A stretch of 64,000 nucleotides of DNA from Heterostelium album PN500. Taxonomy: Eukaryota; Evosea; Eumycetozoa; Acytosteliales; Acytosteliaceae. The stretch spans positions 310,001 to 374,000 of the forward strand of contig NW_008805064.1 in the NCBI RefSeq assembly GCF_000004825.1, read 5' to 3'. Shown piece by piece: positions 29,975 through 34,652 of this stretch. A program made the translations under genes and the position numbers. Numbering within the stretch: the stretch's first letter is position 1; the number at the start of each line of letters is the position of its first letter. Below the pieces are notes generated by a model. The model was not told where the DNA came from. It saw only the letters and a program-made list of their open reading frames with translations, and made no database searches.

Positions 29975-30860
29975 TCTCTCTCTCTCTTTTACTTATTTAT
30001 TATTATTATTATTAATATTATCTATATTTATAAAGAAAAAATTAAATAAAAAGTAAAAGTATATATATTTTGTGTATGTATTATTTAAAAAAATATATAT
30101 AAAATATTATAAAGGTGACATAAATAAATAAGAAATAAATAAATAAATATAAAATGTTGTTTGTTACTACTACTCTAAAAATATATAATTTTAAATTGGT
30201 TGATTGATAGTGATTTAAAAAATTTAGATAAATCTATCTTAAGAATAAAAAATTTGATGTAAGATGAAATTGATTAAATTTAATTAACGTCGATTTGATT
30301 TGATGTTTAATTGTTTTGATGTTTTAAAATTGATTATTTGTAAACAAATAATGATCATTAATTGTTAATAAAAAATGTGGTGATTGACTGACAACTGTTT
30401 TTTTTTTTTATAAAATCCATTTAATCGGAAAAGTTTTTTTGAATGGGTTAAGTTTTGACAAAAAATAACCTTTCATTTGGTTGTGTTAAAGATCATGAGA
30501 CCCATTCAAAAAAAAATGTAATTTGATTCTTTTAATTAAATAAAATCAGATTCTGATTTACACACTTCTTATTATTTGCAGAACTTAATAAATTTGTGTT
30601 TTTGTAACCCAAACTAATTCATTCTTTAAACATCGAAATCATTGTTTTCACTTTAAAATAAACAATTCATTTATTCCTTTTTTGTTTGTGTTTTAAAAAT
30701 AAGAAAAAGAAAAAAAGATATTATATGTTAAAAGTACAACAATCAAATCCATCTTTTTTTTTTTTGTTTTTTTTGTTTGATTTTATTTAGATTACAATAA
30801 AATGAATGGTTGATCTATCCATCAAATGAAATGGAAAATAGATTGATTGGTATGTTTGTA
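29975..30860. other. Spacer upstream of pkd2, with a 15-bp inverted repeat
   Basis: AT-rich, with no coding frame. Bases 30434-30448 and 30500-30514 form a perfect 15-bp stem with a 51-nt loop. The pkd2 promoter should lie in the first few hundred bases. Confidence 0.5.
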
Positions 30861-31085
30861 TTAATATGGGAAGGGATTACGATGTGTATTATATCCTCCC
30901 ATACCGGTATTCAGTCCACCTGGTGGTACAGGACCTGGATTCTTTGGTTTAATTGAATCACCTGGCGATGATAATGGTATGATGGGTGAGAGTGCTAAAA
31001 ACATACATATATATATATAATATAGACATAATGTTAGATATAAATGTTATTTCTAATTAAATAACTTTTACATACTTGGAAGCAT
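30861..31085 (-). CDS. 47-residue Pro/Gly-rich mini-protein with a 10-nt first exon
   Basis: Exon 1 is 31085-31076 (ATG CTT CCA A) and exon 2 is 30994-30861, joined across an 81-nt intron with GTATGT donor and TTTTTAG acceptor. The protein begins MLPTLSPIIPLSSPGD, continues KPKNPGPVPPGG and ends GGYNTHRNPFPY at TAA. There is no signal peptide, no hydrophobic segment and no known family. Its neighbour at 31353-31570 has the same exon plan, size and ending style, which argues that both are real. It is too short for ordinary gene calling. The function is unknown. Confidence 0.62.
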
Positions 31086-31352
31086 TTAATTAAAAAGATA
31101 TTGTTTAATCTAGATAATATGAAAATGAAAGAGTTTGGGTTGGATGATGTTAACAGTCAGCGGACTTTACTTTAAATACTTTCAAAGTTTTAAACTTAAA
31201 TTTAATATCTTATTTTTTTTATTTATTTTTTTCGGAAGATCAAGATATTTTTGATATTTTTATTTTATTTATGACAACAAAATTGAGATTTTAAATATTT
31301 GTTTTACAATATCTGCTCTCCTCTCTCTGTAGAGTATCTTTCATATAAGGTC

Positions 31353-31570
31353 TTAAAAACACCAACCATTAGGGTTTTTCTTTGTTGTATAACCTGCTGG
31401 ATTTTGTGGTGGTTTCTTTGGAGTAATAGCAATCAAAACGTTTGAACCTGGCTTGCTTGTTGGTGTTGTACCAGCAAAATTTGCTATAATTTTAATAGAT
31501 AAACAATATTAATAAATCAAAATGTCATTTATTTTTTTCTATTTAAAATATATCACATACGGAATGTCAT
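31353..31570 (-). CDS. 46-residue Pro/Lys-rich mini-protein, tandem relative of the next
   Basis: Exon 1 is 31570-31561 (ATG ACA TTC C) and exon 2 is 31483-31353, with a 77-nt intron (GTATGT to ATTATAG), the same phase and the same 10-nt first exon as the gene at 30861-31085. The protein starts MTFPNFAGTTPTSKPG, continues ITPKKPPQNPAG and ends YTTKKNPNGWCF. The shared pattern is M-x2-P, then Ser/Thr/Pro, then K-P/PP-x-NP, then GY-x-T-x2-NP and an aromatic end. They look like a diverged tandem pair. No domain is recognised; an intrinsically disordered short peptide is likely. Confidence 0.62.
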
Positions 31571-31758: not shown

Positions 31759-34652
31759 TTAAATAAAGAGTTTGATAAATATTATTACTGCAAAAGATAT
31801 TAATGTACTTGGCAAAATACTACCAGAAGATGAAATTACATCTGTTGTGGAACCTATTTTTTTTTTGATTAAAGTTTTAATTAGTATTTTGAAAAAAGTA
31901 GATTACAATAAAATTGAAAAAGTAGATTAAAATAAAATATGAAAAAACTTACTTGTTGTTTGACTGGTTGTTGGTGTTGATGTGGTTGGTGTTGATGATG
32001 TTGTTTGAGTGGATGTGGTGGTTGCTGTTGTTGTTGATTGCGAGGTGGTCGGTGTGTTTGGACAGAGTTTGTTGACATTGCAATAACCGTTGGGTGTTTC
32101 GCAGTCACAAAGGATTGCGGCGGTGAATTGCCTCAGATATCCGTCGACAGATATCGTTAGGCTACTGGTTGGATTCGGTACGATTCTATTCATTGTGCAA
32201 ATCAAAACGGTAGAGGTTGGCGAATCCAACATACAAACATCACCACCAATCTTGATCTGAATGAAACGCAGGTTTGATCCAAAGTTACCGTTGATGGTAA
32301 GTGTGAGACCGCTGTTATTCGCAGTTGTCACTGTTGGATAGGTCCATTTGAACTCAGAGAAGTTTGTAGAGACAAATGGTTGACTTTCCACAGTGAGATT
32401 GTACCAACCTTCCGGCAAAACCGGATAGATTTGAGAAATGATGTTTGTCGTGTTCGAAGTTACAACTTGAACCTTTGTGCCATTGAAATAAACATTTGGT
32501 TTGACCAAGTTTGTGAAATTACCATCAAACATATTAATTGATGTACCTGATACAATTTGTAAAAATTGTGTAATAAAAGTAACTATTTTATATAAAAAAC
32601 AAATCAATTAGTTAACTAATGAATGACAGTTCAGCTAGTTTAAATGTTGATAACTTACTCTTAATATACTCTTTTATGTAGAAACTATCTGAAAAGTCTG
32701 ATTTTACGGAAATATTATATGAACCAGTTAAAATATCTTCTTTGACAATACAATAAATATATTCTTCACTGCTTTCAACGATATTACATGAATAGTTTCC
32801 AATATCTACGACTAAACCACTGGTATTAAAGATACCATTTATCATCCAATGAACTTCATCATAAAGTAATCTAAATGTTACATTCTTAATATAATCTATA
32901 ATTGATGTTTTTTAGTAAATATATTGATGAATTCTAAAAATGATTAATTATTTGCTTAACTTACATTCTTTGGACCAATCGATTGTGAATTGAATTCCAT
33001 GGAATTTAGAGAAAATGATTATTTCAGTTCCTTGTTTTGCACTCGATTGGATTGTGTATTGATAAGTCGTTGACTTATTGATTTCTACCAATCCGTCGCT
33101 GTGATCGATTTGTACTAATTGACCATTTAGTCTGTTAAACAACTTGCTTATGTAAAGTAGGTTTTCACCGGTGATAGTGATGACACCGTTCTGAACGAAA
33201 TAACTAGTTTTATCGAGAGTCGCACCACACATTCCTGTTTCTGTTTGATTTGTAAACGCTGCGTATCCAAGTGGTAAATAGGTGAGGTTGATCTTTCTGT
33301 TGCAATACAGATATTTCGGTATTGTATCATTGGTAGCAGACAAGTAAAAATTTGGATAATCCGACAGGTCTGGACAAACAGATTTAAAACAAATATAAAA
33401 CGGTAGTTTATTTGATCTTTGAAGAACAACTACTACATTTCTAAAAGATAAAGTATTATATTAGTATTCATACACTTTTTCTTTTTTCTTTTTCTGTACA
33501 TACGGATATATAGTTGCACCTGCAAGTACGAAATCCTTTGTCGACCAATCAACAACAAAGAAAGTAAATAATCTTGCTCTAAACATCACTGTACTTGTTA
33601 CAATGATAACTCCATCGGTGATATTTGAGATTGACATAGTCGCTGCTGGTGCATTCATTTCGAGTGTTGCATTTGGCATGTCACCAATATTTCTATAAAA
33701 TTAAAAAAGAAATGGGGTTGACAGTTGTTGGTAAATTTCTTTGTGGAATATTAAGATTATTGAGGTGTAGAAACTTACACTTGAGACAAAACAGGATAAT
33801 AATATGATGAAAAATTATAGTAATATGGTTCAACAAATGAAGTAGTATTGACATAGGACATTACTCTAAAATAATTAAAAGTTAGCCTTAAAAAAAATTA
33901 AAAAAAAAGAATAAATAATTTTACATACAAATAAAGTGAAACCAATTTTGGCATGATTGTCAATGGGAAATTGGCTGGAATAATGGGACCATTACTAGAA
34001 TAGTTCATTTCAAATCTATAGAAGCATCAAAATTATGAGTATGAGTAATGAATTGTTCATCTATATTGTTCAATGTATTTACCTGAACCATGATGCAGAG
34101 GATATATTTCCAAACAATGTCATTGGGTGAATGCTTGTATTATAAATATTTGGTTTAAAAAAGATAAAGGAATTGATATTTGGGAAATCAAGTGGTAAAA
34201 TTGAAAAATCTGGTTTAATTTCTGGATCGATTGTTGCATTCTTTTGTGTAAATCTATAAGAATGATAGTTTTTTTTTTTTAGTACTAATTAGAAAATATA
34301 GTTTAATTATATTTTATAATATTTACGCAATTTGATATACATAAGAACCATCACCACTTGGAAAATTATTGCAAACAACAGTGTCAGCGTAATCAGGATT
34401 TGATACTGGACAGAGTGTTACATTATCATAAAGTGTTGGGTAATATGCATAGAAATCACCTAGGAACTTCAAATTATTCTCTATAAATTATTGAAAGTGG
34501 TGTTGCAAAATATTAGCACTCAAAATTTTGTCGTTGGTGCACAATTGTGGGTGTTTGATATGCTTACGTTCTGTAGAGGTGATTTGGGAGAAACAAACCG
34601 AACAAACAAACAAAATCAATACTGATAGCGTATATTTGAAATGGATAGACAT
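31759..34652 (-). CDS. Tgr-like IPT/TIG cell-surface glycoprotein with GPI-type tail
   Basis: Probable adhesion or recognition protein. Ten exons, all in phase: 34652-34568, 34480-34327, 34253-34083, 34015-33929, 33865-33779, 33692-33504, 33440-32965, 32895-32659, 32546-31953 and 31853-31759, giving 724 residues. It begins with a signal peptide (LSVLILFVCSVCFS) and has many N-glycosylation sites. An E-set/IPT segment is seen in the last third (TANNSGLTLTINGNFGSN, IKIGGDVCML), then CDCETPNGYCNVNKLC, a Thr/Ser stalk and a hydrophobic end (TLISFAVIIFIKLFI) with almost no cytoplasmic tail, as for GPI attachment. The layout resembles dictyostelid Tgr and related IPT proteins. Orthology to TgrB1/TgrC1 is not shown. 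Confidence 0.82.

Follow-up and report, generated by a model that had tools for sequence, protein, structure and literature searches.

Anatomy of the locus

The window, that is, the whole analysed stretch of 64,000 nucleotides of the Heterostelium album PN500 genome, carries two small genes, denoted here A and B, on its minus strand. In the direction of transcription of this strand, the end of an IPT/TIG-domain gene is followed by A (31570-31353), B (31085-30861) and a polycystin-domain gene. The features are as follows:

32532-31927, minus strand: ORF of the IPT/TIG-domain gene (domain match), with a further exon ending near 31760 by eye
31561..31570, minus strand: coding exon 1 of gene A, 10 nt, ATGACATTCC, ending in phase 1
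31484..31560, minus strand: intron of gene A, 77 nt, GTATGT...AATTATAG, GC about 12-13%
31353..31483, minus strand: exon 2 of gene A with the stop codon, product MTFPNFAGTTPTSKPGSNVLIAITPKKPPQNPAGYTTKKNPNGWCF
31076..31085, minus strand: coding exon 1 of gene B, 10 nt, ATGCTTCCAA, ending in phase 1
30995..31075, minus strand: intron of gene B, 81 nt, GTATGT...GTTTTTAG, GC about 14-15%
30861..30994, minus strand: exon 2 of gene B with the stop codon, product MLPTLSPIIPLSSPGDSIKPKNPGPVPPGGLNTGMGGYNTHRNPFPY
29548-29075, minus strand: ORF of the polycystin-domain gene (domain match)

Re-reading of both gene models yielded the anatomy proposed in an earlier, sequence-only reading of this DNA: a 10-nt, phase-1 first exon, the GTATGT donor, introns of 77 and 81 nt, a second exon starting with CA, Pro and Thr residues restored by the splice, and products 46 and 47 aa long. 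The placement of the pair between pkd2 and a surface-recognition gene likewise agrees with the polycystin-domain and IPT/TIG-domain genes found on the two flanks. The last intron bases are 31484 in A and 30995 in B, so that the second exons start at 31483 and 30994, respectively; both end with TAA, and a CTAAC occurs in the intron of B at a distance of 43 nt from the 3' end of that intron. The product of A (pI 10.0, 8 Pro) starts with MTFPN and ends with GWCF, and that of B (pI 9.5, 11 Pro) starts with MLPTL and ends with PFPY. The two have in common a tail, GY-x-T-x3-NP plus aromatic residues, and no signal peptide or membrane segment is apparent by eye in either.

Coding potential and expectation by chance

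The second exons are much richer in GC (38% in A and 44% in B) than the introns (12-15%) and the flanks (15-23%). The claimed frame obtained the top score of the three frames in exon 2 of both genes under a three-periodic coding model, for which 68 long ORFs served as the training set. For comparison, 800 similarly long frames were taken from outside the long ORFs; of this null set, which still includes real short exons, 5.3% scored as high as A and 0.5% as high as B. The coding score of gene A is modest. The full plan was sought in 214 kb of the genome (the window and 15 stretches of 10 kb) as an exon 1 of 7-19 nt, GTATGT, an AT-rich intron of 45-134 nt, an exon 2 of 30-70 codons and a positive coding score. 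The only two matches were A and B, with thresholds that had been chosen after seeing these genes. The bare string ATGN7GTATGT occurs in the window twice against 0.81 expected, which is not significant (17 of 100 shuffles reach two). Given 56 genome-wide matches to AAATGN7GTATGT (see below), chance would be expected to yield about 0.02 pairs lying on the same strand no more than 500 bases apart, a figure that counts against random strings only because real genes cluster.

The contention that the pair is not a product of chance is thus borne out by the full plan, with the reservation that the thresholds of the scan were set post hoc, and by the similarity of the two peptides described below. It appears quite unlikely that A and B are no genes at all and represent open frames that arose by chance in the region separating the TIG-domain gene from the polycystin-domain gene. 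Such frames would be compatible with the failure to find homologues, the chance-level frequency of the bare string in the window, the modest score of A and the only slightly lower number of genome matches for an 11-nt than for a 10-nt spacing, but not readily with two adjacent full models that show matching phase, GC contrast and alike peptides, with the lack of any other full-plan match in 214 kb (under the post hoc thresholds), or with a tail pattern, GGNTAYAMNACNNNNNNNAAYCC, that is found in 33 Mb only at the places of A and B.

Relationship between A and B

Comparison of the two products by BLASTP gave an E value of 0.002, and the score of their alignment was reached by 9, 6 and 1 of 5000 residue shuffles of B under three alignment settings. 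The resemblance goes beyond composition. At the DNA level, the tail pattern GGNTAYAMNACNNNNNNNAAYCC, which was built from A and B, produced two matches in 32.9 Mb, both at the places of these genes, compared with two for the reversed pattern; a narrow version produced one match (B) and one reversed match. A wider version, GGNTWYNNNACNNNNNRNAAYCCN, was rejected as a route to more relatives, with six matches (A, B and four others) against six reversed ones. Two of the four other matches were read: L106 lies inside a long Thr/Ser-rich repeat frame, and there is no mini-gene-like frame at L107.

Twelve of the codons for the 17 identical residues are wholly identical, with one, one and five differences at codon positions 1, 2 and 3, compared with 13, 16 and 16 for the 22 non-identical aligned residues; this is weak evidence for selection because the identical residues were picked. 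Most simply, A and B would be tandem duplicates, judging by the BLASTP comparison, the shuffles and the tail pattern present at both places only. The two copies therefore are not independent evidence of the plan, contrary to what had been claimed for them.

The gene plan of the hssA/sigN family

The plan of A and B had also been considered unusual, a view that does not hold, given that the same plan characterizes the sigN/hssA genes and that 10-nt first exons occur elsewhere in the present genome, in hss genes and other mini-genes. In Dictyostelium discoideum, the coding part of exon 1 is 13 nt long in 89 of 96 sigN-like genes, which contain one intron (66-107 nt in six rows of the table) and encode the remainder of the protein in exon 2 (Vicente et al. 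2008, PMC2257962, in excerpt); the hssA genes likewise consist of 13 bp and about 200 bp (PMC6198379, in excerpt). Genes of this type are grouped on the chromosome, as are A and B (excerpts of PMC2257962 and PMC6198379). Expression of the sigN genes is of the prestalk type, and antibodies against the sigN products disturbed mounds (PMC2257962, in excerpt). According to the available part of PMC8554618, knockout of six genes of the hssA/sigN-like small-protein class caused no developmental phenotype.

A and B thus share with the sigN/hssA/2C/7E genes (PF05710, 'Coiled') a tiny phase-1 coding exon 1, one short intron and a small protein encoded mostly in a single main exon 2. They differ from these genes in the length of exon 1 (10 nt instead of 13 nt), in the Pro/Gly/Lys-rich composition of the 46-47-aa products, and in the lack of a Ser/Gly/Cys-rich body and of a PF05710 match. 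No Pfam family, PF05710 included, was detected for A or B at E values up to 10, whereas against PF05710, for which the curated cut-off is 21.4 bits, an hss peptide from a gene of this genome with a 10-nt exon reaches 47.2 bits. A family member would be expected to encode a Ser/Gly/Cys-rich protein of fewer than 120 aa with an MTIL or MLIK start, as in the hss genes of this genome, a combination not found in A or B. Because they lack a Pfam match, have other starts, do not carry a recurrent exon 1 and are not preceded by the upstream box TATAAATA, A and B share the plan but are not filed here as hss genes. The layout of the pair looks ordinary, and the protein sequence alone looks new.

The hssA genes also offer a precedent for function at the level of the transcript. 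When hssA was overexpressed from frame-shifted as well as in-frame constructs, the defect of a statA mutant with partial activity was suppressed (PMC6198379, in excerpt), and because the frame-shifted constructs were effective too, this look-alike family has a documented transcript effect. By analogy, the A and B transcripts, rather than the peptides, might be functional, as small RNAs in which short frames are retained by coincidence. We regard this as highly improbable because the claimed frame outscores the other two in exon 2 of both genes, the two peptides are alike beyond composition, and no Rfam model matched over A and B at E values up to 1, the matches to microRNA models being located outside the genes.

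Tiny first exons elsewhere in the genome

The H. album PN500 genome contains 12 PF05710 exon-2 matches. Exon 1 was modelled as 13 nt in five of these loci (L022, L024, L028, L029 and L032, the last of which also allows 16 nt) and as 10 nt in four (L026, L027, L039, identical to L030, and L046, identical to L031); L021 and L025 have a 13-nt pattern match at the right place, and L023 falls outside both the 10-nt and the 13-nt counts. PPL_02631, a public PN500 protein starting with MLIKSLTSLGN, gives a 98% match at C4:158543-158719, beside which the exon ATGTTAATAA followed by the donor GTAAGT is located at C4 158777-158794. Judging from the protein match and the adjacent exon 1 and donor, the deposited model of this protein appears to use a 10-nt exon.

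Genome-wide, AAATGN7GTATGT has 56 matches (24 when reversed), AAATGN7GTAAGT has 85 (48 reversed) and the 13-nt form has 67 (29 reversed), compared with 51 (32 reversed) for a control spacing of 11 nt. Because the 11-nt spacing is nearly as frequent, the counts by themselves carry little weight in favour of the 10-nt form, and the recurrence of exon-1 sequences is a better signal. The exon ATGTTAATCA accounts for 19 of the 141 ten-nt matches, ten of them on contig C30, where nine copies followed by GTAAGT lie within G000:C30:261312-283493; six copies of ATGTTGCACA, also followed by GTAAGT, lie within G000:C15:150750-187746. These clusters of repeated 10-nt exons suggest arrays of mini-genes. 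The exon-1 sequences of A and B each occur only once among the 141 matches.

All 54 AAATGN7GTATGT matches outside the window were modelled and sorted by reading into three hss genes (L038, L039 and L046), ten other mini-genes encoding 42-70 aa (L050, L051, L054, L063, L065, L071, L077, L079, L080 and L081), a single Pro-rich candidate (L055) and 40 remaining matches that are inside other genes or lack a convincing small exon 2. The 13 hss and other mini-genes resemble A and B in exon-1 length and phase, the GTATGT donor and a short AT-rich intron. Their products are 42-85 aa long, a GTAAGT donor is used elsewhere in the genome, and the exon-1 copies are clustered. As in A and B, the last residue is aromatic in six of the ten non-hss products (FWTCW, AWCIW, FKWW, THFF, FWAVW and FWTIF). 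Unlike A and B, with their MTFPN and MLPTL starts, Pro-rich sequences and own GY-x-T-x3-NP tail, all 13 products start with ML, and four of the ten non-hss ones start with MLxKNL and have Ser/Asn/Gln-rich middles. Candidate L055, with a 10-nt exon and a Pro-rich 40-aa product, was rejected as a third gene of the A/B type, being outside the eight best matches of A and of B.

We define the tiny-first-exon class by a 10- or 13-nt phase-1 exon 1, an AT-rich intron shorter than about 125 nt and an exon 2 of about 35-85 codons plus stop, an architecture that both A and B display. The TATAAATA box is absent within 142 nt upstream of A and B and present in seven of 14 class genes. TGTGTG occurs once upstream of A and neither at B nor at the 14 class genes.

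Nineteen of the 67 thirteen-nt matches were read; nine belong to the RRRRTTN-IFGD type or its GRRRTN variant, five to a TKLGS type, and five are single or unclear. In L087-L092, L099 and L105, the 13-nt exon is accompanied by an MTLIKSIS-type start and by RRRRTTN(V/I)IFGD preceding a Gly-rich stretch, several of the second exons having been read in part; L096 carries a variant of this motif, RRRTNAIIFGD. One of the five single or unclear matches, L104, has a start that we take to be thioredoxin-like.

Homologues and possible kinship with hss genes

In a collection of 5.8 billion proteins, no homologues were found for A or for the A+B alignment. A control search of the same collection with the hss peptide L039, at E values up to 0.01, returned one Acytostelium and one PN500 protein; L039 itself was missed, as were all hss proteins of D. 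discoideum. Because the control missed L039 itself, dictyostelid coverage or sensitivity must be poor for such peptides, and the missing homologues of A and B say little about other species. The presence of some PN500 proteins in the collection, yet not of A or B, suggests, without proving it, that these two have not been deposited. In protein searches of the genome itself, at E values up to 10, A found A alone and B found B alone. As far as the peptide sequence goes, the assertion that A and B match no known family is right for the Pfam families and the protein collection searched.

Among 46 peptides compared, the best match of A after B was L051 (shuffle p 0.001, or about 0.05 once corrected for the 46 comparisons), followed by L063 (p 0.007), with L054 in fifth place (p 0.036); B resembles A alone, the next best having a p of 0.12. 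The L051 and L063 matches are a faint hint that A may be akin to the class. They bear on the possibility that A and B belong to the hssA/sigN/2C superfamily (PF05710) but have diverged, with a body remodelled beyond recognition. The likeness of gene plan and small size, the hss genes of this genome with a 10-nt phase-1 exon 1 of their own, and the aromatic ends of six of the ten drifted 10-nt genes, recalling GWCF of A and PFPY of B, all point in this direction, but the marginal corrected p of L051, the restriction of B's resemblance to A, the lack of a Pfam match, the MTFPN and MLPTL starts as opposed to MTILxSL and MLIKSL, and the differing upstream boxes make such an origin unlikely.

Interpretation

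A and B are probably a real, and probably unannotated, tandem pair of genes for basic Pro-rich mini-proteins, built on a known dictyostelid plan. This assessment draws on the anatomy, the coding-like second exons, the similarity between A and B, and a plan that is common to hss and other mini-gene families. The plan, that of the tiny first exon of dictyostelid small developmental genes, consists of a start codon, two further codons and one base, a short AT-rich phase-1 intron and one exon with the rest. A and B would be transcribed and spliced, and expressed during development. Genes with an intron near the start often show a higher output, and the start-proximal intron of A and B may serve expression rather than the protein. 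The products may act in development inside the cell or leave it without a signal peptide, and the tail, GY-x-T-x3-NP plus aromatic residues, would be the selected part.

A wider interpretation, which we consider rather improbable, is that a start codon plus 10-13 nt, a phase-1 intron and a promoter constitute a portable dictyostelid leader to which unrelated second exons become attached, so that mini-proteins arise repeatedly and A and B form a young Pro-rich branch beside four others in this genome, namely hss, MTLIKSIS-RRRR, TKLGS and MLxKNL.

If transcribed, the tandem pair adds an unrelated-looking, Pro-rich type of protein to an architecture for which the hssA/sigN family is the main known example. 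Such genes easily escape annotation, as illustrated by L039, a clear hss peptide that lacks a self-match in the protein collection. A de novo transcript set from 2017 is reported to comprise 175 novel PN500 genes (PMC5282741). PF05710 genes and the architecture are present both in this genome and in Acytostelium. H. album PN500 and Acytostelium are group-2 dictyostelids, and therefore the PF05710 family extends beyond group 4, which may matter more than the A/B pair.

Other features near the pair

In the TIG-domain gene (window 31760-32532, minus strand), a Thr/Ser-rich stretch is followed by a short hydrophobic tail, which, by eye, we take to be GPI-anchor-like. Antisense to the second exons of A and B, there are stop-to-stop frames of up to 52 aa. 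At 30434-30515 on the plus strand of the window, within the spacer that precedes the polycystin-domain gene, there are weak, sub-threshold matches to microRNA models (E values of 0.034 and 0.44); the ends of this segment pair by eye (GAATGGG/CCCATTC), and it is probably only a hairpin.
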